64,000 nucleotides of DNA from a virus. A program made the position numbers and the translations under genes. Location of the stretch: positions 1 to 64,000 of the IMG/VR virus record IMGVR_UViG_3300033155_000498; one strand, written 5' to 3'. Positions 8,826 through 48,470 of the stretch are shown in pieces (positions within the stretch are counted from its first letter, which is position 1; each line of letters begins with the position of its first letter). Below the pieces are notes generated by a model, which did no database searches, was not told the DNA's origin, and saw only the letters and a program-made list of their open reading frames with translations.

Positions 8826-9218
8826 TTAGAATTCAGTAGTGCCTACTGCTAAACCTAAAATAGTTTTTGGAGTTGGGCTTAACTCAAACCCACGTTTGTC
8901 AGCTTCTGCGGCTAACTTCTTTAAATACGGAACTAATTTCTTTTTATCTTCCGGACCCATACTTTTTGCTTTGGCTAAAAGTCGCTGCCATGTTTTATTC
9001 AACTTAACACCTGACTGTTTACGTGCTGCGTCTTTAGCGGCCTTGATTCCGTATCCAGAGTCTGATGATTTACCAGTACCTTTGAATTCTGGCTGTGGCT
9101 CCCATTCAAGTTCGCCTGCTTCTAATAGTGCTATAGCTGATTTACACAACTTAATTGACTCCTTAAGGGTCTTTGATTTACGTCGTGGACGCTGACTGTA
9201 TAGTTCAAATAATTTCAT
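8826..9218 (-). CDS. Basic protein with possible capsid-targeting N-terminus, 130 aa
   Basis: Starts MKLFELYSQ, similar to the MKLFELFEKA of the next gene upstream, and is rich in Lys/Arg (PRRKSKTLKES, KDAARKQSG), with short helical repeats. Basic, small and N-terminally related to the neighbours, it resembles T4 internal head proteins, though the cleavage site I/L-x-E-A is only partly matched. Late promoter TAAATA at 9237-9242 and GGAG before the start. Last gene before a terminator. Function unknown. Confidence 0.62.
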   Translation of the reverse strand: MKLFELYSQRPRRKSKTLKESIKLCKSAIALLEAGELEWEPQPEFKGTGKSSDSGYGIKAAKDAARKQSGVKLNKTWQRLLAKAKSMGPEDKKKLVPYLKKLAAEADKRGFELSPTPKTILGLAVGTTEF

Positions 9219-9244
9219 TCTTAACTCCGATGCTTATATTTAGC

Positions 9245-10237
9245 TTAAAAGTACTTTGCATTATGTTCTGAGTATTCAAGCCAGTTTTTACCTGCTCGTA
9301 TACGGCGGTGGGTGCCTAATCTACCTAATTCTGCTGCTAGTCCTGGGGTCATTTCAAACCCAGCTATGCTGGCTGCTGTTGACAAGTTCATGTGTCCAAG
9401 CATACCCGGACCTTGTTCGTGATCCCAAACAACAACTAATGGATTTTGACTTGTTGTTTCTGGTTTGCCATCTTCTGTAACTTTGCCACGGGACTTGCGT
9501 ACTGCATTAACAGCATTAATAACCTTCTTTGCTAGTGCAACGAATGTCTCACCGTTGTTAACTTTAAATTCTTCTTCTACATCGGATATATGGCTAGCAA
9601 ACAATCCCATGCGTTTAATCTGTGCTATCAGCTCTTGCATATTAATATCAATTGGCTTGCTTTCGGTAACGGCTTTAGATTCAAATGCTGATTGATGTAG
9701 CTGTTGATTTGTGGCTGCGTCTGGAATAGGTATACGATTTGCTGCTTGATATGCAATTTTATTCCACATGTGTTCTGGTGCATCTAGTTCGTGTGCAATG
9801 TCCTTAAGATACATGTGTAGTGCTGTATCCTCATCACCGCCCATAACAACAGACATTAACATCTCTTGGTCTTGTGACCCGGTTAGTATAACTAGTTCTA
9901 CCCAGTCATCAAATGACTTTGTATCGTTCTCTTCTCTAACGGGCCTATTTTGTAATTTGTTGATACGATCTCTAAGATCATTTAACTCGGATTCTTGATC
10001 GTTGTTTACTCTTTCGTTGTCATCAATTTCAACGTCCTGATCCTTATTGTAAATATCCAAAGAATTAAGTTCTTTGTCTTGAACTTGTTGTTCATCGCCC
10101 ATCATACTAACCAATGCGCCCAAATCATCATCAGCTGAACCGTGATATTTTGATCTTGCTCTTAGGAGTGTTTGTATAACTCGAGGATCTTTTGACTTAA
10201 TATTGTCGGCTTTTTCAAATAGTTCAAATAGTTTCAT
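9245..10237 (-). CDS. Protein with possible capsid-targeting N-terminus, 330 aa
   Basis: Begins MKLFELFEKADN. The middle part (residues about 45-95) is a long acidic helical stretch with a predicted coiled coil (NDQESELNDLRDRINKLQN). The C-terminal part ends in a compact GLAAELGRLGTHRRIRAG segment. No enzyme motif was recognised. TAATG overlap with the gene upstream. The N-terminal peptide and the gene block suggest a capsid-packaged protein (inference). Confidence 0.62.
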   Translation of the reverse strand: MKLFELFEKADNIKSKDPRVIQTLLRARSKYHGSADDDLGALVSMMGDEQQVQDKELNSLDIYNKDQDVEIDDNERVNNDQESELNDLRDRINKLQNRPVREENDTKSFDDWVELVILTGSQDQEMLMSVVMGGDEDTALHMYLKDIAHELDAPEHMWNKIAYQAANRIPIPDAATNQQLHQSAFESKAVTESKPIDINMQELIAQIKRMGLFASHISDVEEEFKVNNGETFVALAKKVINAVNAVRKSRGKVTEDGKPETTSQNPLVVVWDHEQGPGMLGHMNLSTAASIAGFEMTPGLAAELGRLGTHRRIRAGKNWLEYSEHNAKYF

Positions 10238-11538
10238 TATTTTCTGCCTGTGCGTGGAAAGCTATCTTGGTGTAGTTCTTTATATTCTTCACGGACATTT
10301 GCCATAATTTCGCGCTGGTATGATGGATCAAGGAATTTTTTCGTGGCTTGCTCAACATACTCTTTTTCGTTCTGTGCATTGGTCCTGCCAGGTCCTTCAT
10401 CTTCCCAGACTTCTTTAGCTAGCCGCACACCTTCTTGGAATAACTCTTCTGCTAATGCAGATACTAATTGATCAATTTTAGCATCTTGACCGCTGCTAAT
10501 AGTATTCGAACCGTCTTCCTGGAATGCGTCATCTGACAATTCGTCACCTGGTAATCCTGCTGCGTCTATCATATCGTTAGTTACACCAAAGCCTATATCG
10601 TTTGATTCTATTTCAATCGAATACGAAACAATCTCGCCTTTGTAACGGTCGCTTACATGTGATTCTTTAGCAGTAACATGAATTGTGTTGCCCTGGGCCA
10701 TTAAACGTTTCATGTCGCTAACCATACCATCGAAGTTTGCTGTTGTATCTGTGCCGCCTTCTTTAACTGGCTCTTCGGCTAAGTCAAACTTACCGTTTTC
10801 ACCTTTGTTTAATGAACCTTTTTCTTTTAATTTACTGTAGAATTCTTTTTCTAAGCGTGAAGTCTTATCTGCTTCAGCTTCATCCATTGAACGGAAAATG
10901 TCTGCTAATGATTGTTTCTTAGGTGCAACTGTATCTTCGTGTATCTCACCATGACCTTTGCATGTTGGGCATGTATCGCCGTATGCTGTGCCGTCACCAT
11001 TACAGTCTGGGCACGTTGTAGTTGCTGGTTCAAATTTAGCTTTGTCGCGTTTAAGTTTGTTTGTTCTAGCGTCTGCGTCAAACGGAACAACTAATGAATC
11101 TGGTTCTTCCTTTAAATCTTTATTTTGATCGTCTAGATCTATGGAACCCATTGACTGATGGCCCATTGCTTGTTGCCTGCGTTTGTCACGCTTATCTTGC
11201 ATCACATCTTTAATTTTAGCAGTAACCACGCCAGTCATATTTTCCTGGTCCCATCTATGATCTAGTTCGTCTGCGTTTGGCTCATCATCGTATTCACCGC
11301 CTACTAGGAATTTACTTGCTGGGTGCTTTGTGGCTGTATTCTTTGCCATTTTATGTTGCGCTGGCATTTGGTTAACACTTTTCTGCGCTGAGTCTAAACC
11401 TTCGAGAATGTTTTTCATTGCTGCATTATCGGTGATTTTATTCTTAGTTGGTGTGACTTCTGTTAAAGGCTTATCCTTGTCAGGCGTTGCTGCTTTATCA
11501 AACCCCTTTAAGATATCTGTCATTTTAAAATCGTTCAT
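10237..11538 (-). CDS. Acidic late protein with zinc-ribbon (DnaJ-type CxxCxGxG pair), 433 aa
   Basis: The start at 11538 has AAGGA; a longer frame to 11664 would run into the neighbouring short gene. The protein is acidic and low in complexity. Two motifs, CPDCNGDG and CPTCKGHG (near residues 178-200), form a four-cysteine zinc site like half of a DnaJ zinc finger. No J-domain is present. It may be a scaffold or internal head protein. It lies inside the capsid-targeting block but its own N-terminus (MNDFKMTDIL) does not match that peptide. Confidence 0.62.
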   Translation of the reverse strand: MNDFKMTDILKGFDKAATPDKDKPLTEVTPTKNKITDNAAMKNILEGLDSAQKSVNQMPAQHKMAKNTATKHPASKFLVGGEYDDEPNADELDHRWDQENMTGVVTAKIKDVMQDKRDKRRQQAMGHQSMGSIDLDDQNKDLKEEPDSLVVPFDADARTNKLKRDKAKFEPATTTCPDCNGDGTAYGDTCPTCKGHGEIHEDTVAPKKQSLADIFRSMDEAEADKTSRLEKEFYSKLKEKGSLNKGENGKFDLAEEPVKEGGTDTTANFDGMVSDMKRLMAQGNTIHVTAKESHVSDRYKGEIVSYSIEIESNDIGFGVTNDMIDAAGLPGDELSDDAFQEDGSNTISSGQDAKIDQLVSALAEELFQEGVRLAKEVWEDEGPGRTNAQNEKEYVEQATKKFLDPSYQREIMANVREEYKELHQDSFPRTGRK

Positions 11539-11539
11539 A

Positions 11540-11710
11540 TTAATCCTTGCCTGCGCTGTTAGCGTATTTACCGGTTTTCTTGGCTTTACTCTTCTTTTTG
11601 GTATTACCGTATACAGATGCATTACGTGTAAATGCTGGCGCAAGGGCAGACGATACTGTAGCAATGCCGCCTGCGGAAGTTGTTTCTGTTATAAATTCAT
11701 TTGCTCTCAT
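11540..11710 (-). CDS. Short capsid-targeting-peptide protein, 56 aa
   Basis: A 57-codon frame from ATG at 11710, with ATGA overlap to the upstream gene and its stop 1 nt before the next start. It begins MRANEFITET, very close to the T4 internal-protein leader MKTYQEFIAEA, and ends in a basic tail (NTKKKSKAKKTGKYANS). The pattern, leader plus small basic body, is that of T4 internal head proteins. The predicted prohead-protease cut would follow ITE. Confidence 0.68.
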   Translation of the reverse strand: MRANEFITETTSAGGIATVSSALAPAFTRNASVYGNTKKKSKAKKTGKYANSAGKD

Positions 11711-12123
11711 TCGTATGGTTTCCGTTTTTGTATATCGCCGAAATCAACCCTTAATAGATTCAAGACCTTTGTTAAACGCTCGTCGTCAAGTTTATCCCAG
11801 TCGTAACCTTTAAGATACTTTCTTCTCTGCTTATCGTGTGCATTATCAAGCTCTTTTTGTGTTACATGTCTAGCAGAAACAATCTTTCCCGTCGAGCCTG
11901 CTAGTTGATAGCCCTTGCGTCTAAATATTATTCCGTCACGGCCAAACACATTACCTTCTTCATCTTGTAGCCTATTACTTGAAACTACCCTTGCAATTTT
12001 TGTAACAAGTTTTTGGGGCATACCCTGAATCCCAATTTGTATAATATCACCAACTTTGGCATCATGCAGGCCTGTAATAGACTTGTCAGCTGCGCCGTTT
12101 GTTGTTACTTCGGATAAGTTCAT
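11707..12123 (-). CDS. Late protein of unknown function, 138 aa
   Basis: Begins MNLSEVTTNG. Residues about 20-80 are strand-rich with a VGDIIQIG turn and could form a small barrel (KOW/SH3-like); the rest is basic and helical (KQRRKYLKGYDWDKL). ATGA at both ends ties it to its neighbours. Not recognised. Confidence 0.6.
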   Translation of the reverse strand: MNLSEVTTNGAADKSITGLHDAKVGDIIQIGIQGMPQKLVTKIARVVSSNRLQDEEGNVFGRDGIIFRRKGYQLAGSTGKIVSARHVTQKELDNAHDKQRRKYLKGYDWDKLDDERLTKVLNLLRVDFGDIQKRKPYE

Positions 12124-12407
12124 TCTAATATCTCAAATCTAGTATCGTCTAGTACAATGGCGTCACCTTGCTCGATATACGGACTGCCAATTGTAAATTT
12201 ACCTGGCGCCGGGGCTAATTGTTCAAAATAGATCTGGTATACGCCGGGCTTGGCCTTAATCTGGAGCATTTCATTAATATAAAAACCATCATGGTATTTA
12301 AATGTGCGCTCTGTAAAAAGTTCGTCGTTAACATAAATGCGATACTCCGGGTAAAATCCCTGCCATTTGCATTTAACATCAAACTTGACTGTAACAAACT
12401 TTTCCAT
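12120..12407 (-). CDS. Small beta-rich late protein, 95 aa
   Basis: Alternating hydrophobic and polar residues over most of the length (VTVKFDVKCKW, YRIYVNDELFTERTF, GVYQIYFEQL) suggest an all-beta domain. First gene of a late transcript: TAAATA lies 5 nt before its ATG and there is no Shine-Dalgarno. Possibly a virion component. Function unknown. Confidence 0.62.
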   Translation of the reverse strand: MEKFVTVKFDVKCKWQGFYPEYRIYVNDELFTERTFKYHDGFYINEMLQIKAKPGVYQIYFEQLAPAPGKFTIGSPYIEQGDAIVLDDTRFEILE

Positions 12408-12412
12408 AATAG

Positions 12413-12418
12413 TATTTA
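12413..12418 (-). promoter_or_regulatory. T4-type late promoter, leaderless spacing
   Basis: AATAAATA, then CTATT, then the ATG at 12407. In T4 the late -10 is centred about 10 nt before +1, which puts +1 on the A of this ATG. Confidence 0.62.
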
Positions 12419-12481
12419 TTCGGATTGGGATGATTTGAAATGAATTCTACGTTCGCATCTTGTTACTGCATATATAATTGT

Positions 12482-13369
12482 ATGGATACACTCTTCCACC
12501 TCGAATTAACCAATCTATGTACACTTAAATGCCCGGGTTGCCACAGAACGCAACTAAAGAATGAAGGCGTTAAGTGGGAAAATCATTCGGTTACACTTGA
12601 TGATTTGAAGCAGTTCATTGATGTTGATATATCAGGTAAGCAGATTAATATGTGTGGAACATATGGTGATGCTTTGTACCACCCAGACTTGATTAACATA
12701 GTTAAATGGATTAAAGAAAGCGGAGCATGTATACAGCTAACTACAAACGGCAGCCACAAGTCCTTGGCGTTCTGGGCAAGTTTAGCAGAACAGTTGGATA
12801 GCAATGACGAAGTAATATTCAGTATTGACGGCACGCCAGAGAACTTTACAGAGTACAGGATCAACGGCGATTGGAAAACTACGCTAAATGGTATAACAGC
12901 CATTGACGTTTCACCTGCTAAAATGAGTTGGAAATATATTGTATTCAACTACAACGAAAACGATATTGATGCAACAGAAGCGTTAGCATACAAACTAGGG
13001 TTTGATTCGTTTAGTACACACCTGTCTAATAGATACACAGATGACTTCAACCTAAAGTATATGCCATCCGAAAAGTTTATTAACAAGGAAGAACTTGAAG
13101 CTAGAGATAAAGTAATGTCTAATGTAGACACTGATTTTACACCTAGTTGTCGGGGAGAATCTCCAGCGTTTAACTATTATATTAGTGCTGAGGGATATTT
13201 TACGCCGTGTTGTTTATTAGCAGATAAAAGGTTTTATTATGATACGGAGTTCAGTAACGAAGATTATAATATTCGCAAGACAACATTTTCTAAGGTATTA
13301 AAAATGACTGAGGAATTCTATAAGTTCGATAATCCAACGGACGGGTGTAGGTTCTTCTGCGGTAGTTAG
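12482..13369 (+). CDS. Radical SAM protein with C-terminal cysteine (SPASM-like) region, 295 aa
   Basis: CTLKCPGC near residue 14 (CxxxCxxC) binds the SAM 4Fe-4S cluster in this superfamily. Further typical points are NMCGTYGDALYHPDL (glycine-rich SAM contact), LTTNGS and FSIDGTPENF. C-terminal cysteines (PSCRGES, TPCCLL, DGCRFFC) suggest a second, SPASM-like cluster. Such enzymes often modify peptides or sugars; the substrate is unknown. QueE is unlikely because the cysteine spacing and length differ. The start at 12482 fits the family (short lead before the Cys motif); an ATG at 12440 would add 14 residues. One of few plus-strand genes, convergent with 13366-13605. Confidence 0.8.
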   Translation: MDTLFHLELTNLCTLKCPGCHRTQLKNEGVKWENHSVTLDDLKQFIDVDISGKQINMCGTYGDALYHPDLINIVKWIKESGACIQLTTNGSHKSLAFWASLAEQLDSNDEVIFSIDGTPENFTEYRINGDWKTTLNGITAIDVSPAKMSWKYIVFNYNENDIDATEALAYKLGFDSFSTHLSNRYTDDFNLKYMPSEKFINKEELEARDKVMSNVDTDFTPSCRGESPAFNYYISAEGYFTPCCLLADKRFYYDTEFSNEDYNIRKTTFSKVLKMTEEFYKFDNPTDGCRFFCGS

Positions 13370-13605
13370 AGTTTTGCGTTAGCTAGTCTAGTATAATAGT
13401 CTGGCTTTTCAAGTAAGTGATCCAGCGCAATTTCTATTGCCATTGCATCATCATTAGTGTGTTCCAGTTCAACTTTAATCCCCATACGTAACTGAGCAAG
13501 AATTTCTTTAAGAGGCACTCCGTGCTTTCTAGCTAGTTCACTAGGTGAGTATGTTCTAACATCTGGGAACCGTTCGGCTTCTGATATAAACTCAATTGCT
13601 TTCAT
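13366..13605 (-). CDS. Capsid-targeting-peptide protein, 79 aa
   Basis: The start at 13605 is preferred to 13629 because it is 5 nt from a late TAAATA and yields MKAIEFISEAERF, nearly the T4 IPIII leader MKTYQEFISEA. Predicted cleavage after ISE. The mature part looks like a small helical domain (SPSELARKHGVPLKEILAQL is helix-turn-helix-like, followed by LEHTNDDAMAIEIALDHL). It could be a DNA-binding internal protein; inference only. Confidence 0.7.
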   Translation of the reverse strand: MKAIEFISEAERFPDVRTYSPSELARKHGVPLKEILAQLRMGIKVELEHTNDDAMAIEIALDHLLEKPDYYTRLANAKL

Positions 13606-13610
13606 AGTAC

Positions 13611-13616
13611 TATTTA
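13611..13616 (-). promoter_or_regulatory. T4-type late promoter, leaderless spacing
   Basis: CTAAATA, GTACT, ATG (13605). The stop codon TAA of the upstream gene is part of the promoter element. Confidence 0.6.
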
Positions 13617-14219
13617 GCCGTATGTCCAATCGTTAACCAGTTTGTATTTAATGTTAAATGCGTTCATTAATAATTCCAATTCGCGCAAACATTCATGTCT
13701 ACCGCCGCCACCCATTAACGAACCACTTAATGCTTTAAGATCGCCAATGCTGATGTCAGGCAAGTATATGTTCATTTCCCTATTATCGTAGTACTCGAAG
13801 TCTTCGCCTACTAGCTTTAACCATGCTTCGTCTTCTATTTCTCTACTGTCGTTTAAATTATTTGTTACAAGGTAACGTATAACTCTGATAGTCATACTAT
13901 CGTCAACGCCTTCGTCCATCCATTGCCTTAACCATGCATACGACTTTTCTTTAAACGTAAATAGATGTGTTAAATCTTCGTCAAGTCCTTGTTCGATGTA
14001 ATGCCACATCACCTCGTTCTTTGTGTCTTCAATCCCAACGTCTTGCCCATTATAAAACACTGTAACATTCGGTTTCTTTTTGTTTATGTATTGTATAGCC
14101 TGTTGCATTGCTTCATTGTAGCCAAATCCGTCTGAATCTGCGCCTTGATGATCAGGACTATACGCAGGCTGGAAGTCTACTAGTATAAGACTGTTGCCGC
14201 GCGCCTCAACTAACTTCAT
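13614..14219 (-). CDS. Possible isochorismatase-like (cysteine hydrolase fold) protein with short targeting N-terminus, 201 aa
   Basis: MKLVEARGNS contains L-V-E-A, a possible prohead-protease site right at the N-terminus. What follows, SLILVDFQPAYSPDHQ, resembles the first strand and catalytic Asp of isochorismatase-like hydrolases (VDxQ). Near the C-terminus, GGRHECLRELELLMNAFNI places a Cys at the start of a helix before a strand, as the family nucleophile is. The catalytic Lys was not identified. The long insert between them is unusual. Could also be an unrelated alpha/beta fold. Confidence 0.52.
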   Translation of the reverse strand: MKLVEARGNSLILVDFQPAYSPDHQGADSDGFGYNEAMQQAIQYINKKKPNVTVFYNGQDVGIEDTKNEVMWHYIEQGLDEDLTHLFTFKEKSYAWLRQWMDEGVDDSMTIRVIRYLVTNNLNDSREIEDEAWLKLVGEDFEYYDNREMNIYLPDISIGDLKALSGSLMGGGGRHECLRELELLMNAFNIKYKLVNDWTYG

Positions 14220-15151
14220 TCGTCTGTGCTCGTTACTATTAATACTGGGACTTCGTTTACGCCAGCTTTAATAGCTGCCATTGAACGATGTACGCCTTCC
14301 TGCGACACTCGTGGACCACGTGAATAATCTAATGTAAGGATCGGAAACTGCTCTCCGTCTATCATCTTTTGTGTATATTTCTCAACTAACTCCGCATCAC
14401 GCTGTTTTGTAACTTGCTCAACAGTTTTACCAAACCCGTCTGCAACTCGATTTAAATATTCGCTTGGAGACATGTTAACTAACTCTGATACTAGGCCTTT
14501 TGCTCTTTCAAAGTATTCTGGATTTTGCATCATGTTATCGTAAAATGGCATTTCTGTTGTGTCTTTATGGAATGCATTTTGTATATCTTCGTTAGTTGGA
14601 TCGCCTTTGTCAACATCATCTTCAGCTGGTACTGGTGGCTTATTATGCCAAACTGATGTGTCGCTTATCCTACTCATGCTACCATAATCAATATAGCGAT
14701 TGTTACGCTTCACCCAAAGCAAGCCGCCTGCACGTAACGCTGGTTCGTACTTGTCTGACCCAAACTCCCCGGAAACTGTGCCGAGGTCTTTCGAACGTGG
14801 TTTACTTTTAAGTACTTCCCAAACGTGTTCTATTACAGATTCAACAGTTGGGAATAATGTTTTAATTGTTGAATATTTTCGTCCCAAGCGTCTAAGATCA
14901 CTATCGTTAACATAAAAATAACCAGGATCTTTATATCGAACGCCATCACCACGTGTCCAAACGCGCATGCCAGGATCTTTAACGTGTATTAGTGCAAGGT
15001 TAACTTTTTGATCTTTGAGTGCTAACATTGTTCTACGCTTGCCAGTCATTTTTTCTAAAACTGTGCGACTAATCTCTTTGTTTAGAGCGTCAGCAATAGC
15101 ATTAACTTTACTAAACATACTGGCTTCTGTTATAAAATCATTTGCCTTCAT
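14216..15151 (-). CDS. Capsid-targeting-peptide protein with ParB-like C-terminal region, 311 aa
   Basis: Begins MKANDFITEASMF: targeting leader with predicted cut at ITE/A. The middle is unrecognised (KNNRYIDYG, GDGVRYKDPGYFYV). The C-terminus, FPILTLDYSRGPRVSQEGVH then RSMAAIKAGVNEVPVLIV, matches the ParB/Srx-type nuclease pattern where a substrate loop (GxHR) is followed by helix AAxxAG and strand xxPVxV. This suggests a nuclease or NTP-binding role inside the capsid, or after injection. ATGA overlap with both neighbours. Confidence 0.65.
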   Translation of the reverse strand: MKANDFITEASMFSKVNAIADALNKEISRTVLEKMTGKRRTMLALKDQKVNLALIHVKDPGMRVWTRGDGVRYKDPGYFYVNDSDLRRLGRKYSTIKTLFPTVESVIEHVWEVLKSKPRSKDLGTVSGEFGSDKYEPALRAGGLLWVKRNNRYIDYGSMSRISDTSVWHNKPPVPAEDDVDKGDPTNEDIQNAFHKDTTEMPFYDNMMQNPEYFERAKGLVSELVNMSPSEYLNRVADGFGKTVEQVTKQRDAELVEKYTQKMIDGEQFPILTLDYSRGPRVSQEGVHRSMAAIKAGVNEVPVLIVTSTDE

Positions 15152-18100
15152 TGTGGGTAGTGTCCTATATTTTTCATTAAGTTTTTAAATACTTCTTCAG
15201 CGGCAGATGCCTCATTGCCGTGTATGTCACGCTCAACTTCCATTCCTTCCAACCAGCGCATGTTTGCATCCATATCTTCTACACTGTGCCTATCAGCAAT
15301 CATTTGTATTGCGTCACGATGTGACTTTGGTATAGCCGGAGTGCCGTCGTCAACTGCTGGAGCGGCTTGTTTAGCACGTCTACTCTTTAGCTGATTAATT
15401 AATTCTTCCTTGGTAATCATACCTGCGTTAAATGCTGCAAATAAAGTAAACGCTGGTTTGTCTGCTTCGCCCTGTCCTACATTGGATGCTAACTTATATA
15501 ACTTCTTAGCGTATTCTTTCTTGTACGCTGCTGGATCTGCTGCTACTGCATACGCAACAATAAAGCGGTTTATAGCTGCAAAGATAGCTTCAATATCGTG
15601 GAAGTAGTCTTCGCCGCCTGCGGATCTAAACTCGATCCAGCCATCCCTAACACCCACTGACGCAAATTTACCAAAGCTAATATTGTTAAAGGAATTACTA
15701 ACTGCATGACTCAGATCACCTTTCATTTTAGACATTAGCATTGCAAGTGATTTTTCCTTGCCTGGTTTATCTCTTTCGAAACCTTGTCGTGCATCCATCA
15801 TATCACTTAGTTGTGTGAGTGAGTGTACTGCATATTCGTTAAACTCGCGCCCAAAATGTTTTAATATATGTGCGTCACCTAGCATAATAACTAACTTCGC
15901 ATAATCCAATTTAGATTGATCCACTTTAGCAAGGCTTACGTTAATATGTAAACCTGTTGATTCGTTTGCATACGCGCCCTTGCCCTTTAGATATTCAATA
16001 ACTGCTTCAACATTCTCAATACCATCTACATAATTCATTTTTGATGTGACTATTTCCAAACCACTATCACCATCGTTATTCGGCTTAATGGACGCATCGC
16101 TTGTAACTGACCACGTTGTACTTGTATCAGTATCACCGTAACTGTCGCCGCCATCTACCGAAACACTTTCACCGGATATGTCTTCTAAGTCGCTTGCAAC
16201 TTGATGTGCAAGTTCTTCGTCAAAATCTTCTTGGTACAATGGACCACCGGGCCAAGTTAAATCACCGGACCATTCGTTATATACATCGCCCATGCTGTTT
16301 AAATGTACCTGGCGTAACCACGTACCAACAGAATAATCATAATCATTGACTGCTATTTCTGTCTCATAGAATTCTTGCTGATAAAATTCATTTAATGCTT
16401 CTATAGCTTCCACATTGTCAGCAACGAAAACTTCATAGTATAAAAGTAAGTACGGGTCGGTGGCTTCCTGCACAGGCCACTGTTCAGCATCGCCGTCTGT
16501 TTTATATGCATCGTGTGCCACACGTAACACTTCATTGGCAATCTCTTCTGTTATCTCAAGATCGTCTTCGTCTACTTTCTCACCTGCTTTATCAGCAAGA
16601 TCGTTTTTAATTCTAATAATAGCATCGTCTGCATCACTTGAGTTAACATACAGGTCTGTCATTATTTCTACTTTCTTAGTGTCTTCAACAGTTGGATTAT
16701 TAAGAGCATCGTCTACTTCACTTGTCTGCCAAGCTGATGCCCGTTCGTCTATCCATTCTTGATGCGCTGCCATCATAGTTTCAAACGCTTCGTCGTTGTC
16801 TGTGTCGTATGTAAAGAATTCGCGTATGTCGTCAAATGATGTGTGTTTAGTAATGTCCGGATTTGCTTCTGTGTCTCGCTGAATTATAACTTCAAACTCA
16901 AGTCCAATCATTGGATCAACTGATTGTATAATACTGTTTACATGCTTCTGCAATCCGCCCGGTGACATGTTAAGCTCGTTAACAAGCCCTTCGAATATAT
17001 TATTAACTGTTTTAGTTTTGCCGTTTGTTTTTAGTATTGGCGGTACACCACCTACTGTTACCGTGTGCCCTAATTTTGCTGCTTCTATTTTAGTTTGGTT
17101 AACTCCAACATCGCATGTTGTGTTAACACCTTGAACAATGCGGCCTTGTTCATTAATCTGTGTGCCTACAACTTTATGTACTAATCGTTTCGCTTCTTTA
17201 GTTCTGTCTGCTGCTATTAAACGTGTAAGTAAATCAATCTGTGCTTTTGGTGCTATTTTATAAAATTGACTGATTTCGTTAGGGCCGGTATCTGTAGCGA
17301 ACTTAGTAAGATTTGATGCTGCTTCGTAGATATAGTCATAATCAAAATCATCAAACAGGCTTTCTCTCGCTGCCATTAAACGTTTGACCATTCCTTCTGT
17401 TGCTTGTGTTGTTGTACCTGTTTCAAGCTCTGCACGTAGCTCTTGTGCTAATGTATCGGGTTCGTCTTTCTTTTGCTCAAGACTTAACTTACTGTCTTCG
17501 TGCCCGCGCCTCTTAGCCCAAAGTTTTGCAAAGTAACCATCTGTGCGTAGCATTTTAAATGCTAAGTTCTCAGGTCCAAACTCTCCAAACTCGTCTAGTC
17601 CAGCGGATCTGTACTTCTTAACTAGATCTAAAACACTGTTTAAATATTCTGAATCGTCGGAGGCCAATGCACGAATAGCAAGGTTCTTTAGTTTGTCGTA
17701 TTTTAATAAGGTTGCAGTATCGTTAAGGTTTGCACGTTGCTTAGATGGAATCTTATTCCACTCATCCTTCATAACACTGTAGCTACCTAAGGAATGATGT
17801 GGTTCTGCTGCATCTTGTACGTACAGCTCAACTTCATATCCTTTAATTTTAATATCGTGGTTGTGATTGTATTGATACTTCTTAGCATCAAACATTTCTT
17901 TATAAACTTCGTTATTTGGAAGTTTTGTAAAGTCTACTATAAGGTGTAAGTCAACATCTGAGTGTGGTGTATAACTATATGCTGCATTAGATCCACTTAC
18001 TTCGATATCAACTAATGCGATGTTCTGTACGCCTAAGAACTCGCGGAAATGATCCGCAATCTCTATTAGTTTATTACGTACCAGCGGGCGCATCTTGTCA

Positions 18101-18183
18101 TTCATAAAGATTTGTGGATTCAAATCAGTATTAAAGTTTATGGCCTTCGTTAGTTGGAAGTTGTCGAGTTCTTCTAAATTCAT
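15148..18183 (-). CDS. Large nucleotidyltransferase and amidoligase-like fusion protein, 1011 aa
   Basis: N-terminus: a polymerase-beta-type nucleotidyltransferase signature, GSNAAYSYTPHSDVDLHLIV, with Gly64-Ser65 and Asp76/Asp78. C-terminal half: a set of motifs like the Amidoligase_2 (COOH-NH2 ligase, glutamine-synthetase-like) family: IGLEFEV (about 425), GLEIVTSKM (about 706), TGLHINVSL (about 741) and WIEFRSAGGEDYF (about 847). The middle, residues about 250-420, resembles phage structural linkers. Amidoligases join amino groups to carboxylates using ATP; no substrate can be read here. Leaderless-type late promoter. It precedes the ParB-like capsid-targeted gene by an ATGA overlap. Confidence 0.68.
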   Translation of the reverse strand: MNLEELDNFQLTKAINFNTDLNPQIFMNDKMRPLVRNKLIEIADHFREFLGVQNIALVDIEVSGSNAAYSYTPHSDVDLHLIVDFTKLPNNEVYKEMFDAKKYQYNHNHDIKIKGYEVELYVQDAAEPHHSLGSYSVMKDEWNKIPSKQRANLNDTATLLKYDKLKNLAIRALASDDSEYLNSVLDLVKKYRSAGLDEFGEFGPENLAFKMLRTDGYFAKLWAKRRGHEDSKLSLEQKKDEPDTLAQELRAELETGTTTQATEGMVKRLMAARESLFDDFDYDYIYEAASNLTKFATDTGPNEISQFYKIAPKAQIDLLTRLIAADRTKEAKRLVHKVVGTQINEQGRIVQGVNTTCDVGVNQTKIEAAKLGHTVTVGGVPPILKTNGKTKTVNNIFEGLVNELNMSPGGLQKHVNSIIQSVDPMIGLEFEVIIQRDTEANPDITKHTSFDDIREFFTYDTDNDEAFETMMAAHQEWIDERASAWQTSEVDDALNNPTVEDTKKVEIMTDLYVNSSDADDAIIRIKNDLADKAGEKVDEDDLEITEEIANEVLRVAHDAYKTDGDAEQWPVQEATDPYLLLYYEVFVADNVEAIEALNEFYQQEFYETEIAVNDYDYSVGTWLRQVHLNSMGDVYNEWSGDLTWPGGPLYQEDFDEELAHQVASDLEDISGESVSVDGGDSYGDTDTSTTWSVTSDASIKPNNDGDSGLEIVTSKMNYVDGIENVEAVIEYLKGKGAYANESTGLHINVSLAKVDQSKLDYAKLVIMLGDAHILKHFGREFNEYAVHSLTQLSDMMDARQGFERDKPGKEKSLAMLMSKMKGDLSHAVSNSFNNISFGKFASVGVRDGWIEFRSAGGEDYFHDIEAIFAAINRFIVAYAVAADPAAYKKEYAKKLYKLASNVGQGEADKPAFTLFAAFNAGMITKEELINQLKSRRAKQAAPAVDDGTPAIPKSHRDAIQMIADRHSVEDMDANMRWLEGMEVERDIHGNEASAAEEVFKNLMKNIGHYPQ

Positions 18184-18822: not shown

Positions 18823-19479
18823 TTAAAATTTCGTAATAAACTCTACAAATTCGCGTATTAGATCTTCTGTTTGTACTACGCCTAGTTTCTTATCAAACAA
18901 GTTGCGTAGTCCTTGTGGTACATCACCATAAAGGTCTGCAAGGATTTTGCCACGATTCTTATCTGTTGCTGTAGCATACATGTCGCGTATTTGAGTTGCG
19001 CCTTTTACCTTCTTGCCTGCTACTGGAAACTCGATAGTTGGTGTTACATACGCATACATATGGCCTGATGAAACTGGCTGCGCGTCTTTGCGTAACCACT
19101 GTATGGCTGCGCGTTCTCCGTTCTTTTTAACGGCGTACCCTTCTGCGTCTGTATTTGCGCCAACTAAACGATCACCATCTTTTTGGCTTACTGCAAGAAT
19201 TATAACAGTATCAGTATCACTAAATGGAATTGCATCTTTAATAAACTTTTCGACGTACGGACTCTTAACTTTAACGAACTTATTAGCTGGAATGCCCATT
19301 GCCGTTGCAATACGTTTCTTTTCGTTCCATGAAAATGGATCTCTTGGACCAGTTGCTTTTTCAGCTGATGCCATGAATACGCTATTAGCACCAAACTTTT
19401 GAGCTAGGTGATCGTAGGATGATTTATGGCCTTTGTGTGGCGGTTGGAATCGGCCGCCATATACAACTAATGTCTTCAT
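18823..19479 (-). CDS. Nucleotidylyltransferase (cytidylyltransferase/NMNAT superfamily), 218 aa
   Basis: GGRFQPPHKGH at residues 9-19 is the HxGH nucleotide-binding motif of this superfamily. Further along, DPFSWNEKKRIATAMG matches the adenylylating branch. The C-terminal ISTxxR-like element is replaced by GATQIRDMY. Products could be NAD-related or CDP/ADP-linked; the sequence cannot decide. The last 20 residues (EDLIREFVEFITKF) are a helical extension. Leaderless-type late promoter. Confidence 0.75.
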   Translation of the reverse strand: MKTLVVYGGRFQPPHKGHKSSYDHLAQKFGANSVFMASAEKATGPRDPFSWNEKKRIATAMGIPANKFVKVKSPYVEKFIKDAIPFSDTDTVIILAVSQKDGDRLVGANTDAEGYAVKKNGERAAIQWLRKDAQPVSSGHMYAYVTPTIEFPVAGKKVKGATQIRDMYATATDKNRGKILADLYGDVPQGLRNLFDKKLGVVQTEDLIREFVEFITKF

Positions 19480-20196: not shown

Positions 20197-20646
20197 TCAG
20201 TATTTATCTGTTATTTCAAACAATGGTTCTTGATCTTCTAACCAGTCTTTTATCATTTGTAGCTCTGTACGTGTTTTGACTGGATTATTAGGAAAGACCA
20301 ACCCATCTATAGTTAGATCATATATGATACCGTCTCCGCTATCCTTACCACTGGATATCGGCACCAGCTGAAGATCAGTTTCTTCAATTAATTGAGATGC
20401 AATCTTACCCATTGGCGTTGGAAGCATTTCTACATGAGCTACAACATAGTCACCCTCTATAGAAAGGATCGCTTTAGCTGCAATGCGATCCATAGTAGAC
20501 GACTTAGGCACCGGGTATTCATCAAACGTAACAATACCAAGACCTTTGTTGAATTCTTCAACTGCTTTAACTAGTTCGTCTCTGGGGTAGATTCTACCTC
20601 TGCCATTGCCTGATACGACATCGCATTTGTAAATCTTTGCTTTCAT
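20197..20646 (-). CDS. Degenerate prohead core protease (gp21)-like protein, 149 aa
   Basis: The layout follows T4-type prohead proteases: an NGRGRIYPRDELVKAVEEFN start, DR(I)AAKAILSIEG, then LPTPMGKIASQLIEETDLQL followed by VPISSGKDSG, where active enzymes have VSxRGxG. The usual GE(L)xHP that supplies the catalytic His reads FDEYPVPK here, so the His is absent, and the protein is shorter than gp21 (about 210 aa). It may be an inactive paralogue or a diverged member; the active gp21 that would cut targeting peptides is probably elsewhere. Confidence 0.5.
   Translation of the reverse strand: MKAKIYKCDVVSGNGRGRIYPRDELVKAVEEFNKGLGIVTFDEYPVPKSSTMDRIAAKAILSIEGDYVVAHVEMLPTPMGKIASQLIEETDLQLVPISSGKDSGDGIIYDLTIDGLVFPNNPVKTRTELQMIKDWLEDQEPLFEITDKY
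20201..20206 (-). promoter_or_regulatory. T4-type late promoter, leaderless spacing
   Basis: GATAAATA, CTGAT, ATG (20195). The same six-plus-five bases as the promoter at 18189. Confidence 0.64.
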
Positions 20647-24135: not shown

Positions 24136-25194
24136 TTATTTAACTAGTTCTGGTTTGTAAACTGAACGTAAGCCAAGTGCTTCTGTGTTGAACTTAACAA
24201 GAGCTTTAAGTGCTGGCTCTGTAATAAGTCCATGTAAGATATCAACTGTCTTGTTACCATTCTGTCCAATTACCCAATCGTACTTGCCAATCTTCTTTTC
24301 TAAGATAGCAATTGATTCTGGATTCTTTGACATTTGCTCACATGCTGTACGGAACTTTTCAGTATTAGGATTGCCTTTGTTAACCCATAACGCTTTCTGA
24401 ATACTATCGCGCCATGTTTTAATAAGTAGGTACGCATCGTATAACTCACCACTCGGATATACACCGTGCTTCGCTTTAAATACATCTCTGAACAATTTAC
24501 CAGGATAGTTAATATCGTCTTCAGTTTTACCTGTTGCAATATTAAGTACACCATGATGGAACCAAGTTTCAGCTGAATTCACGTCAATGAATGGAACTAC
24601 CTTAGACTTATATGCTGCTGGATTTTCACGTGTGCCAAGTAGCTCACCTTTAGCAAATGCTAAACGTCTGCCTTTACCGTTTACCCATGTAACTTTGTCT
24701 TTAAAGATTGCAATGTACTCATCAACAGTTTTACCTGGACCACCAATCATCATAGCAATAGATAATCCTTCCGGTACCATACCACTACCAGCTGAGAAAC
24801 TAAATCCGTTATCTTCGTTAACGCCTGTGCGCTTTGCGACAATGATGTTTAAGTTTTGATGGCAAATTGAATCGTATTCTTTGTAGTCGTACTTTACTTT
24901 TTCTTGTACGTACGAAATACCGTTGCCGCCATGTGATACCATAATTGTGTTGTTATCAAAACGACTTGTTTTATGGAACTTGTTGAAACCTGCTTGATCA
25001 CGTGCGCCAGGATTGTAAGAAATAATAACATTCTCATCCTTAAGTGCTGGTGTCTTGGCTAGTTCCGTTGCAATGATGCCTGCCCATTGACTTGTACCTT
25101 TACCTGGTTTCTGTGGTACCATTAAAGTAACATCTGCAAATGCTGATGTGGTAATTGCTAATAACATTACTGCTATTATAGTTTTAATTTTCAT
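24136..25194 (-). CDS. tctC: TctC-like periplasmic tripartite-tricarboxylate binding protein, 352 aa
   Basis: A signal peptide is clear: [19 protein letters not shown] then DVTLMVPQKPGKGTS, the family start after cleavage. NPGARDQAG matches the GA-G motif that TctC/Bug proteins use. Such proteins deliver carboxylates (citrate, tartrate, malonate-like) to TctA/TctB. A transporter binding protein in a phage is an auxiliary metabolic gene. AGGAAA precedes the start. Divergent from canonical TctC in mid-region, so ligand cannot be guessed. Confidence 0.72.
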   Translation of the reverse strand: MKIKTIIAVMLLAITTSAFADVTLMVPQKPGKGTSQWAGIIATELAKTPALKDENVIISYNPGARDQAGFNKFHKTSRFDNNTIMVSHGGNGISYVQEKVKYDYKEYDSICHQNLNIIVAKRTGVNEDNGFSFSAGSGMVPEGLSIAMMIGGPGKTVDEYIAIFKDKVTWVNGKGRRLAFAKGELLGTRENPAAYKSKVVPFIDVNSAETWFHHGVLNIATGKTEDDINYPGKLFRDVFKAKHGVYPSGELYDAYLLIKTWRDSIQKALWVNKGNPNTEKFRTACEQMSKNPESIAILEKKIGKYDWVIGQNGNKTVDILHGLITEPALKALVKFNTEALGLRSVYKPELVK

Positions 25195-25251: not shown

Positions 25252-26823
25252 CTACGAGTAATCAACAATGCCCTTGTTCTTCCAGCCCCATATAGAGACT
25301 ACAACAATAACAAGTGCAATGCCAATAAATGTTGGGTGGTTAAGTAAGTCATTGCTCGGTAATGACGCAATAGCTAGTTGACCTTCACCAACGTGATACC
25401 CGAATATCTCTTTAAGCCTAAGTAAGGGATATCCAGCTATATTAAATAATTGAAAAGTTTGTATCGTTAACTCTTCAATTTTGTATCCTAATATAAACCC
25501 GATCATCAATGCGGGCCTACTAAATTCGTATACCTTCGCCATGTAGCCTACTATTGTAAATACAATTAGTAGCACGACATTTTCTATACCGTAAGTTCCA
25601 AAGCCTGATGTGTATGTTGCCCATACTATTAAAGATAGTATTATGGGAAAGTAATATTTATATGGCACATAGACTATGCGGGAAATATATTTAATTGTGA
25701 ACAGGCAAATGATTCCTGTTAGTAAAGTTGCTGCCAAAAAGCCTAAACTCATAGCATTAAAGAAGAGCGGATCTTTAAGAACATTTTCACTGTCTAATGA
25801 CAGGTCAAAACCGATAGCAGTAAACAATCCTATTATAACAGCGGCAAACGGTGCGCCAGGTATTCCAAATAATACTGTTGGGATCATACTTGTTGCTTTC
25901 TGTGCGTTGTTGCTACCTTCTGGCCCAATGACACCTTTAATATTGCCATTGCCGAATTCCTCTTTTGGGTTCGTTGCAACGGTTTGTCCGTATGCTAACC
26001 AGTCACTTACTGTGCCGCCTATGCCTGGTAAAAATCCAACAACAGAACCAATCGCACCACCCTTTAACGATAGTTTCCATTCTTTAAAAGATATTGTAAA
26101 TCCATCTTTGACTTGTTGCCAATCGTCTACTTTATGATGCTTGGAGAATATCGATTCTTTTTGTAACGCAATTATCATTTCAGGCATTGCAAATATACCT
26201 GCCATAAGTGGAATTAACGGAATACCTTGACCACCATCGCCTTCTAAGAATTCCCAGCCCATTGTAAAACGTGGCGCTGCCGTAATCGGATCTGTTCCTA
26301 TTAGGCTTAAAAATATACCAACCCCAAGTGCAATTAATGAACGTAACCAAAACTTATTAGACACGAAGCTAACTGTTATAAATGCAAGTATACAAAATGC
26401 AAAAAGTTCAGACTGTCCAATGCCGCCCTGACTAGCAGGTAGTAATAAGAAGTCTTTGTAATAAGGTAATAACAAGAATGTTAACGCGCCGAACAATAGT
26501 CCGTTGATAGTTGATGTTGTAATGGCTGCTGATAGTGCATAACTTGCCTTGCCTTGTTGTGCAAGTGGAAAGCCGTCTACCATTGTTGCTGCTGAACTGT
26601 TCGAGCCAGGTATCCCTAGTAAAATAGCTGCGAATGTATCACCTGTTGTACTCGACGCGACTACTGCCATTATGAATACAACTGAAAGATAAGGGTCAAC
26701 ACTTTGTAACATAATTATAAAAGGAAATAGTGCAACTAATCCTGTAGTCGCGCCTGCTGCTGGCACAAGTCCTATAAACAATCCGTAAAATGTTCCTGCT
26801 AATAAAGCTAATAAGTATGTCAT
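25252..26823 (-). CDS. tctA: TctA-like tripartite tricarboxylate transporter permease, 523 aa
   Basis: Eleven or twelve hydrophobic segments and the family signatures: GLVPAAGATTGL at about residue 18, LLGIPGSNSSAATMVDGFPL at about 68, GDGGQGIPLIPLMAGIFAMPE, GFLPGIGGTVSDWLAYGQ and GPEGSNNAQKATSMIPTVLF with FGIPGAPFAAV. This is the large permease of the TTT family, which imports carboxylates with the help of TctC and TctB. No clear TctB is present; a 78-aa membrane protein is at 28129. Full length, with no frame damage. Confidence 0.9.
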   Translation of the reverse strand: MTYLLALLAGTFYGLFIGLVPAAGATTGLVALFPFIIMLQSVDPYLSVVFIMAVVASSTTGDTFAAILLGIPGSNSSAATMVDGFPLAQQGKASYALSAAITTSTINGLLFGALTFLLLPYYKDFLLLPASQGGIGQSELFAFCILAFITVSFVSNKFWLRSLIALGVGIFLSLIGTDPITAAPRFTMGWEFLEGDGGQGIPLIPLMAGIFAMPEMIIALQKESIFSKHHKVDDWQQVKDGFTISFKEWKLSLKGGAIGSVVGFLPGIGGTVSDWLAYGQTVATNPKEEFGNGNIKGVIGPEGSNNAQKATSMIPTVLFGIPGAPFAAVIIGLFTAIGFDLSLDSENVLKDPLFFNAMSLGFLAATLLTGIICLFTIKYISRIVYVPYKYYFPIILSLIVWATYTSGFGTYGIENVVLLIVFTIVGYMAKVYEFSRPALMIGFILGYKIEELTIQTFQLFNIAGYPLLRLKEIFGYHVGEGQLAIASLPSNDLLNHPTFIGIALVIVVVSIWGWKNKGIVDYS

Positions 26824-34841: not shown

Positions 34842-35174
34842 TTATAATTCTTCTTGGTGGCCTGGTTGCCAAATTTCTGAGGCTGTGCCGCCTGTTGTGT
34901 GTACTCTAATTGGGCCCGGTGCTTCACGGTGATAGTAGCGTGTCCAGGTAGTGTCGTAATCGTCATAACCTGTTCTTTCGGTATGATAATCTTTAGTCAT
35001 CCAACCCAAAGCTTCTACATCACCCATTGTGTAAATCGGGTCTGATGCGCTTGAAGCATTGTGTACAGTCGGCATCATGCCAGCTTCAATTTCTGCTTTT
35101 AAACGTGCTTGACGTTTTTTGGTATCGTGCATGTCGCTGTCGACATCTTCTGTAATAAACTCTGATGATTTCAT
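34842..35174 (-). CDS. Capsid-targeting-peptide protein, 110 aa
   Basis: Starts MKSSEFITEDVDSD: the same leader as the block at 8826-15151, with predicted cut after ITE. The mature part is charged and Thr/Tyr-rich (YHTERTGYDDYDTTWTRYYH) and unlike any enzyme I know. Leaderless-type late promoter, far from the other leader genes, which makes the leader's recurrence more telling. Confidence 0.68.
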   Translation of the reverse strand: MKSSEFITEDVDSDMHDTKKRQARLKAEIEAGMMPTVHNASSASDPIYTMGDVEALGWMTKDYHTERTGYDDYDTTWTRYYHREAPGPIRVHTTGGTASEIWQPGHQEEL

Positions 35175-46952: not shown

Positions 46953-48470
46953 ATGAGATTTAGAGAGTTTAACATATTAACCGAAGCACGTGGATTAGCA
47001 AGTCGTACAATCGGTGACAAGTTTGAATCAGACGGCGCTGAGGATATGTCCTTTGAAGGAATTGCCTTCTACCCACAATCAGGTAAGTTTGAAACCCCAG
47101 AAGAACTTGCAGACGAAATAGAAAATGCTGAATATGAATACGGTGCAATTATATGGTTGAACCAAGTACCCAAATCAGGTGGGTTTGGTGTTGTTAGCTT
47201 TGAAACAAAAAATGGCGGGGTTGTACACTACGGGCGTTTCTTTAAAATTATTAAAGCTATGCATGATCAAATGGCATGGACCAATAAGGATATTCCAGGG
47301 TACAGTCTTGCAACTAAGTCTGGCGCTAAAGAAACCGCCGGAATGCAACCATCAGATGTGTTAACACAAACCGATAACCTTACTCCAGCATCTATTGTTA
47401 AACAGATTGCCGTTAAGTTCGGTAAGAATAATCCACTAACTAAAGTGGCTGCTTCTGTTGCACGTGGTAAGAAATTTCCAATTACAATACTAAAACAAGA
47501 AGGCTTGAGTTTTGAAGCGTTCCGTGATTACTTCTGCGAAATGTTACACCCAATTGCATTAATGAAACACACTACCACCGGTAATGCTGTTGAAGCTGAA
47601 AAGCAATTCCTTCCAGGTAGTAGCTTTGCTGAATGTTCTATTAGTTTCAGCACTTCCAAAACAGAAGGATTAAGCGATAGCATCCTTGTTAACCCAACTG
47701 GACAGAACGTTAAAGTTAGCAGTAAAGGTAAATCAGGCGGTGCCCAAGCAGGCGTTAAGAACCTAACAGATGCAATACACGAATTAAAGGATCCAAAGCT
47801 AGTAAGAAAACACAAAGACATTATTGAGCTTATTGATCGTATCACAACCGCTGGCGCAAAAGAAGCACCATCTGAACTTGCAATGCATTATAAAATGATT
47901 AACCAAAAGGAAGCAGGTTTAGTTACTAGATTGCAAACAATGGTTAATTCAGGACTAACACACAAGCAGGTCCTTAAGGGTGGTTACCTAACAAAACGTT
48001 TACAAAAGATTTACGCGAACCGTAATGCAAAGGATCCATCTAAAGTAAATCCACATGCACACATGGTTGCTGCGCTTGCTTTCTTAGTAAGCGATTATAT
48101 TAACAGCAAGACTACATTTGGTAAGTCCGCTGCTAATATACTTAATAATGCTGGCTTAGTTACTGTTGATACTAAAGCTAAGGAAACAGCTAAAGAATGG
48201 ATACTTGAAGATTTTGTATCTAAATTCCCAGGCGATTCTATTACAGGTGTGTTGTTATCAGCACAAAAGAACTACGCGAGTACTACGTTCCGCGGTAACT
48301 TTACATTTAAGATACTTAAGAACAATGCTGATCCAAAGGCGTTTGCTGATGTTAAAATGGATAAGGCTCCGGACGTTAAGAAGAAACCTAAAAAGAAAAA
48401 GTTATCTGCTGCTAGTGGTGGTACTAAGAAACCTGCTAAGAAAGGCACTACACAAAGAAGTAAACGTTAA
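46953..48470 (+). CDS. Large capsid-targeting-peptide protein, 505 aa
   Basis: N-terminus MRFREFNILTEARGLASR: the same leader logic, with L-T-E-A as predicted cut. The middle contains SILVNPTGQNVKVSSKGKSG followed by GAQAGVKNLTDAI, which resembles the E/D-x-K core of restriction-type nucleases but lacks the preceding acid in clear form. The C-terminus is Lys-rich (DVKKKPKKKKLSAASG; KKPAKKGTTQRSKR), suited to DNA binding. Probably packed with the DNA; function unknown. On the plus strand, convergent with 48467-48715. Confidence 0.62.
   Translation: MRFREFNILTEARGLASRTIGDKFESDGAEDMSFEGIAFYPQSGKFETPEELADEIENAEYEYGAIIWLNQVPKSGGFGVVSFETKNGGVVHYGRFFKIIKAMHDQMAWTNKDIPGYSLATKSGAKETAGMQPSDVLTQTDNLTPASIVKQIAVKFGKNNPLTKVAASVARGKKFPITILKQEGLSFEAFRDYFCEMLHPIALMKHTTTGNAVEAEKQFLPGSSFAECSISFSTSKTEGLSDSILVNPTGQNVKVSSKGKSGGAQAGVKNLTDAIHELKDPKLVRKHKDIIELIDRITTAGAKEAPSELAMHYKMINQKEAGLVTRLQTMVNSGLTHKQVLKGGYLTKRLQKIYANRNAKDPSKVNPHAHMVAALAFLVSDYINSKTTFGKSAANILNNAGLVTVDTKAKETAKEWILEDFVSKFPGDSITGVLLSAQKNYASTTFRGNFTFKILKNNADPKAFADVKMDKAPDVKKKPKKKKLSAASGGTKKPAKKGTTQRSKR

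Follow-up and report, generated by a model that had tools for sequence, protein, structure and literature searches.

Why should several proteins with unrelated bodies, encoded on one piece of viral DNA, begin with much the same short peptide? The question arose in a 64,000-nucleotide stretch (positions 1 to 64,000 of IMG/VR record IMGVR_UViG_3300033155_000498; the whole stretch is called the window below). Six proteins in the window open with a short leader that ends in [LIVMF]-x-E/, a site of the type cut by the phage T4 head protease gp21 (a slash marks the predicted cut; Table 1). We propose that these leaders are T4-type capsid-targeting propeptides, cleaved by a gp21-type protease and carried by diverse, swappable virion cargo, and we put the probability of this reading, with the mechanism set out below, at roughly 85%.

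The parent record is a viral contig of 78,393 bp. Genes of the window are collinear with 103-176 kb of IMG/VR contig G001 (344,483 bp), mostly at ~50-90% protein identity, and because of this shared gene order the record is probably part of a giant phage genome similar in size to G001. When the window was compared with isolated phages at the DNA level, the sole match, to PA5oct-like phages, spanned 108 bp close to where the DNA polymerase region begins.

The leaders exceed chance expectation

The six N-termini that a first-pass annotation of this DNA had quoted were all verified as genuine starts of coding genes, and the bodies behind them differ from one another, as it had stated. Its description of a single block at 8826-15151 needs amending. 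Four leader genes do lie together at 11540-15151, but those at 34842 and 46953 fall outside, and the genes at 8826, 9245, 10237, 11707 and 12120, within the block, have at best doubtful leaders.

The first ~16 residues of each protein were scanned with a strict pattern, M[KR]..[FL]..[ILV]xE, using internal segments of the same proteins as background. We found the pattern in 5 of the 115 called genes of the window contig, compared with 0.10 expected (p=6e-8); MKLVE/A is too short to be covered by it. A looser pattern, [ILFV]xE[ASGTN], showed no genome-wide excess over internal segments of the contig's proteins, indicating that the signal lies in the leader as a whole and not in the tripeptide. 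A genome-wide search for over-represented tetrapeptides was uninformative, being dominated by TGNI/GNIT repeats that probably belong to tail fibres.

A degenerate DNA version of M[K/R][A/S/T]xEFI[A/S/T]E then served as a pattern to search IMG/VR, with a codon-permuted pattern of the same make-up as control. The leader pattern matched at least 120 IMG/VR stretches and the control matched 2. Among the matches listed (137 sites), all 127 closed open reading frames (ORFs) were at least 60 residues long, an in-frame ATG further upstream was absent in ~90%, and the bodies behind the leader formed 22 unrelated clusters. By inspection, relatives of ~320-345 kb carry ~8-10 leader genes each. Set against T4, which packages Alt besides its three internal proteins, this roughly bears out the earlier description of the cargo set as unusually large.

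The site is constant while the leaders vary

The likeness to T4 that had been proposed holds at the sequence level. T4 ipII and ipIII begin MKTYQEFIAE/A, ipI has MKTFKEF...TITE/A, and comparable sites stand in gp23 (SFLTE/AEIGG) and gp24 (NELLRE/S). The gp21-type site at the leader end was likewise upheld, since homologues keep the tripeptide while the leader diverges. In the 505-residue protein family, represented at 66 IMG/VR loci, leaders vary in sequence and in length from 6 to 20 residues, and 40 of 40 distinct leaders matched end in [LIVMF]xE/[SAG]. In the isochorismatase-like family (~50 homologues, 29 of them non-redundant), the leader Glu is invariant in alignment A2; it stands at a fixed offset in 25 of the 29 and is moved by 1-2 residues in the other 4. 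Here the window's MKLVE/ARGN corresponds to MKPQEFITE/ARSD, MKASEFITE/GRAH, MRANEFLLE/GLNH and others. The [LI]xE site at the end of the tag also matches that of the major capsid protein (MCP), which in relatives, the source of all MCPs compared here, has this site at the position that it occupies in T4 gp23 (YLKE/NASAGS, and HLAE/SASSG in G001).

Bodies are exchanged, and one site recurs between modules

In the interval from the nucleotidyltransferase gene to DNA polymerase, relative G014 has five leader genes with different bodies, and relative G018 likewise has five (MRATEFIVE, MRYREILE, MRNFINLLE, MRFNELQE and MRLREITE). Some bodies move from the leader to an internal site. G001_113746 begins MRATEFITE/D and continues to an internal SLNE/TTCAGGMATV, where the 56-residue protein of the window has FITE/TTSAGGIATV, so that the body of the latter sits behind an internal site. 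The G001 orthologue of the gene at 34842 has the same MKSSEFITE leader, followed by 112 extra residues that end GLDE/DN ahead of the shared body. In addition, the C-terminal domain of the protein at 14216 is fused behind GLNE/S to the nucleotidyltransferase gene in G001. When G001:C1:115345-116928 was compared with window 14216-18183, the amidoligase part of the 1011-residue protein was gone in G001 and this domain was fused in its place.

Relatives further contain short Cys- or Lys-rich modules (CWKGY, DACYHKVK, WFKEKW, FADGK, WSQKY, DUF6321 and AEYQGR), placed directly behind a leader or within long proteins. For four modules with a clean register, [LIVMF]xE stood at the module boundary in 38 of 43 non-redundant junctions, compared with 1.1 expected, and neighbouring offsets were at or near background. 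The modules have little in common besides this site, which would fit the need of a common processing protease. Several effector domains are combined in one polypeptide in G014_267433 and G018_82217, whereas window cargo is mostly single-domain. A Pfam scan of leader proteins and polyproteins, in which a subset of the relatives was covered, gave no peptidase domain.

These results bear on an alternative in which the leader targets the prohead scaffold and stays uncut, its Glu belonging to a binding helix. The T4 tag has a distinct targeting role, and the residue after the leader Glu (P1') varies among the IMG/VR matches listed (Q, S, G, D, A, V and others), both of which suit such a leader. The site, however, survives leader lengths of 6-20, recurs at internal junctions that have no leader, and matches the position of MCP maturation. 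Moreover, in the structure model of the 505-residue protein (pLDDT, the predicted local distance difference test, 83) the leader residues 1-12 are disordered (pLDDT <50), as is the Lys-rich tail at 468-505. We consider an uncut leader improbable and retain the cleaved propeptide as the preferred explanation.

A head protease and late promoters

G001 has a T4-type head cassette comprising portal, a small leader-like protein (MKINDLTILNE/T), an acidic core-like protein, gp21, gp22-like and gp23, in which the names portal, gp22-like and core-like rest on position and sequence and not on a family search. Its gp21 matches PHROG 207 (head maturation protease) at 2.9e-56 and keeps the His motif IDHP and the Ser motif GVSSRG; a gp21-type protease with catalytic motifs is encoded in G001, G014 and G018 alike. 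The window itself holds a 149-residue gp21-like paralogue at 20197-20646 on the minus strand (PHROG 207 at 3e-5), of which the equivalent G001 region has no copy. Its catalytic HP is changed to YP and its SSRG motif is altered; the paralogue is probably inactive.

The T4 late promoter core, TAAATA, precedes 16 of the 115 genes at a distance of no more than 30 nt, compared with 1.6 expected, most commonly at -11. These genes include those at 12120, 13366, 15148, 18823 and 34842, which fits late synthesis of the locus proteins alongside head proteins. Over the window, G001, G014 and G018, 78 genes have TAAATA at -13 to -10 of the ATG, a spacing from which a T4-type late transcript would begin at or near the start codon, as a leaderless mRNA. 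A Shine-Dalgarno-like motif precedes 5 of these 78, a count confounded by TAAATA occupying that space.

Homologues have been detected in virions of cyanophage isolates

For cyanophage S-SCSM1 (MK867354), mass spectrometry is reported to have identified 45 proteins in virions purified with CsCl (PMC9602691). The annotated virion protein S-SCSM1_29 combines DACYHKVK, a CWKGY-type module, a WFKG segment and a DUF6321-like C-terminus in one chain, and S-SCSM1_91, also annotated as a virion protein, is an NMNAT that begins MKSFLQFLKE/A. The virion list of S-CREM2 (Table 3 of PMC10665884) includes ORF154 (cytidylyltransferase), ORF155, ORF156 and ORF160. We found that ORF154 has the leader MKNFSSFLTE/A and weak homology to the window protein at 18823 (2e-5), that the homology of ORF156 to the protein at 15148 falls in the N-terminal domain of the latter (35.5% identity, 1e-31), and that ORF160 is a polyprotein with 51-78% identity to module chains of G014 and G018. 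Cytidylyltransferase leaders of the forms MKKFSAFL[TSN]E/A and MKRYTNFLSE/A recur in further cyanophages; the homologues L320 and L321 lack one as annotated. T4-GC190 has been found in virions of S-SM1 (PMC3037559).

Several observations weigh against our interpretation. The mass-spectrometry support comes from homologues in other phages, not from the window phage, whose contig is a fragment that stops short of the head cassette, so that it contains neither the gp21 nor the MCP of this phage. The locus proteins at 15148, 18823 and 10237 have no leader in the window. A loose leader pattern showed no association with virion proteins in S-SCSM1 (1 of 5 matches), and SSCSM1_30 (MK867354:44215-44535; MKTFKQFMSE/S), although flanked by virion proteins, is not annotated as one. 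S-SCSM1_29 and S-CREM2 ORF156 were detected in virions and have no leader, indicating that the leader is not the sole route into virions. Finally, the S-CREM2 authors cautioned that the CsCl purification might have carried regulatory proteins over with the virions (PMC10665884).

Carry-over is central to a second alternative, in which the tag addresses another place (chaperonin, membrane or degradation) and the virion detection of homologues reflects contamination. In its favour, the T4 gp23 N-terminus also directs to GroEL (reference cited in PMC10052503). We regard this as highly improbable, since cytidylyltransferase/NMNAT proteins appear repeatedly in independent virion proteomes (S-SM1, S-SCSM1, S-CREM2, S-CBWM1 and S-SZBM1), and an FLxE/A leader is present on five cytidylyltransferase/NMNAT proteins in addition to S-SCSM1_91 and S-CREM2 ORF154. 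The least credible alternative, that the common 5' end acts as DNA, in recombination or regulation that lets genes be swapped, with the peptide incidental, would suit the exchange of bodies behind the same start at syntenic places, but the 137 sites listed hold 130 distinct DNA versions in which every synonymous codon for E, F and I is used, which argues that the leader peptide is under selection, and it is the site, not the leader, that persists in distant homologues.

Proposed mechanism

Under the capsid-targeting propeptide reading, the tagged proteins would be made late in infection, at the same time as those of the head, and their amphipathic leader would bring them into the scaffold core within the prohead. 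A gp21-type protease would then cut after [LIVMF]-x-E, a site like the one in the MCP, leaving the mature cargo within the head beside the DNA, from where it would enter the host with the genome upon infection. From the module chains of relatives, one gene could yield several cargo proteins once cut. For the window proteins we infer virion location, packaging, cleavage at each site, injection and a function in the host.

A broader proposal, which we favour only slightly, is that much of the head cargo of T4-like jumbo phages and cyanophages consists of shuffled polyproteins, built of small basic modules and of ADP-ribosyltransferase (ART), GNAT, NUDIX and NAD-related enzymes, with the site of the head protease between them, and released during prohead maturation as interchangeable injected effectors, with one small protein copying the N-arm of mature MCP.

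If the mechanism is correct, a short searchable N-terminal tag and an internal tripeptide would flag head-carried proteins in a large part of the T4-like phages. Most genes of that part have no known function, and many would become testable candidates for injected effectors. The tag would also offer a simple means to load chosen proteins into such heads, for which the T4 tag is a precedent.

Cargo bodies

Most window cargo proteins had no family in PHROGs or Pfam searches. The body at 13366, previously called helix-turn-helix-like, matches Pfam DUF5661 (E=2.6e-18). For the isochorismatase-like assignment of the protein at 13614, the invariant D15, K92 and C177 speak in favour, while the fold matches are weak: the model is good (pLDDT 88.7) and isochorismatase-family structures are among its best PDB matches, all of them weak. 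D, K and C in that order are expected of cysteine hydrolases such as nicotinamidase. Together with an NMNAT-like gene in the same locus, this makes it a reasonable guess, from sequence and model, that cargo acts on host NAD. The ParB-like label of the protein at 14216 comes down to a sequence motif. The description of the cargo as DNA-associated suits some bodies; others resemble enzymes, and in relatives Pfam identified a NUDIX hydrolase, GNAT acetyltransferases and ART-PolyVal (just under the cut-off) behind the leader.

The 505-residue protein gave no PDB-like fold in a structure search, no tblastn match among isolated phages and no profile similarity to virion protein S-SCSM1_90; its fold relative is Q5GQJ7 of S-PM2.

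The 56-residue protein was compared with the MCP N-arm by a shuffle test. The likeness was strong for its G014 homologue and for S-SCSM1_97 (p<0.0005 each), weak for the window protein scored against the G001 MCP (p=0.0065), and weak for the G001 homologue (p=0.15). From this resemblance, the protein might dock on the inner shell. Copies of the N-arm also occur within virion proteins, in S-SCSM1 (MK867354:93121-93306, L260) and S-CREM2 ORF160 (L325:9250-10143), with GFTGSSAAEGPTAGYDPL against GFQGGSADAGPTAGFDPV. In the cargo loci of G014 and G018, a Ferritin-like (Dps-type) gene lies directly behind the small MCP-arm-like protein (G014:C1:270896-271336 and G018:C1:86452-86892); the N-terminus of the G014 product matches Pfam Ferritin at 6e-10.

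Features of the window and neighbouring genes

Table 1. Leaders, cargo genes and locus genes of the window (a slash marks the predicted cut)
Feature	Position	Strand	Remarks
Leader MRANEFITE, predicted cut E/T	11684..11710	-	N-terminus of the 56-residue basic protein
56-residue Lys-rich protein, SAGGIATV segment like N-arm of mature MCP	11540..11710	-	
Leader MKAIEFISE, predicted cut E/A	13579..13605	-	G001 orthologue MKSTEFITE/E
79-residue DUF5661 protein with leader; TAAATA late promoter at -11	13366..13605	-	Pfam
Short leader MKLVE, predicted cut E/A	14205..14219	-	Homologues MKPQEFITE/ARSD, MKASEFITE/GRAH
201-residue isochorismatase/nicotinamidase-like cysteine hydrolase; D15, K92 and C177 invariant	13614..14219	-	
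Leader MKANDFITE, predicted cut E/A	15125..15151	-	
311-residue protein, C-terminal domain 172-310; ParB-like motif only	14216..15151	-	No Pfam match
Leader MKSSEFITE, predicted cut E/D	35148..35174	-	
110-residue protein	34842..35174	-	G001 orthologue with identical leader
Leader MRFREFNILTE, predicted cut E/A	46953..46985	+	
505-residue cargo protein	46953..48470	+	Kept in 66 IMG/VR loci
1011-residue nucleotidyltransferase + amidoligase, no N-terminal leader; late promoter at -11	15148..18183	-	
Cytidylyltransferase/NMNAT-like protein, no leader in window; late promoter at -11	18823..19479	-	
130-residue Lys-rich protein MKLFELY..., leader doubtful	8826..9218	-	
330-residue protein MKLFELFE/K..., possible leader; internal KAVTE/S and GKVTE/D	9245..10237	-	

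A radical-SAM gene lies within the cargo locus on the opposite strand (12482-13369, plus). Elsewhere the window encodes a TctA-family tripartite tricarboxylate transporter (25252-26823, minus; Pfam 7e-92), adjoined by a possible periplasmic partner with no Pfam match (24136-25194, minus); both are also in G001. Past its MCP gene, G001 has several small genes with VWDRLKNG motifs (G001:C1:252000-262000; L084, L085), and an apparent MCP sequence fragment at 256994-257419.

Comparison with known systems

The combination of tag, site and diverse bodies is already known from the T-even internal proteins, described in PMC3012670 as having nothing but the capsid-targeting sequence in common. T4 IPI, IPII and IPIII share with the proteins described here a short N-terminal tag (MKTYQEFIAE/A; MKANDFITE/A in the window), an [LI]xE site and unrelated bodies. 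The jumbo relatives differ in having more tagged genes, many enzyme-like bodies, tags down to five residues, and multi-module chains with internal sites at which cleavage is predicted. Within the open-licence literature, with an earlier description elsewhere possible, the new elements are the spread of the system to jumbo phage and cyanophage relatives, its enzyme-rich cargo, the constancy of the site in families whose leaders are unrelated, and chains of modules with that site at their junctions. T4 Alt, a packaged ADP-ribosyltransferase, has a parallel in related contig L160, where an ART-PolyVal body stands behind the same leader; L160 is not in the window, and its ART belongs to a different clade by family model, with a match just under the Pfam cut-off.

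The cyanophage virion proteins of S-SCSM1 and S-CREM2 share homologous modules, the cytidylyltransferase, the nucleotidyltransferase and a similar gene neighbourhood; no leader, junction site or processed N-terminus is reported in the parts of PMC9602691 and PMC10665884 available to us. Polyvalent proteins of phages and conjugative elements are likewise multi-domain effector strings thought to enter with DNA (PMC5512222), but their separation is ascribed to built-in peptidase domains, whereas each junction here has a site of the head-protease type, and the available portion of that paper does not describe a leader-type tag for them. In phiKZ and SPN3US, many head proteins similarly have propeptides cut after a Glu-ended motif (PMC10052503); those propeptides are mostly long and of another lineage, whereas the short swappable tag described here is T4-like.

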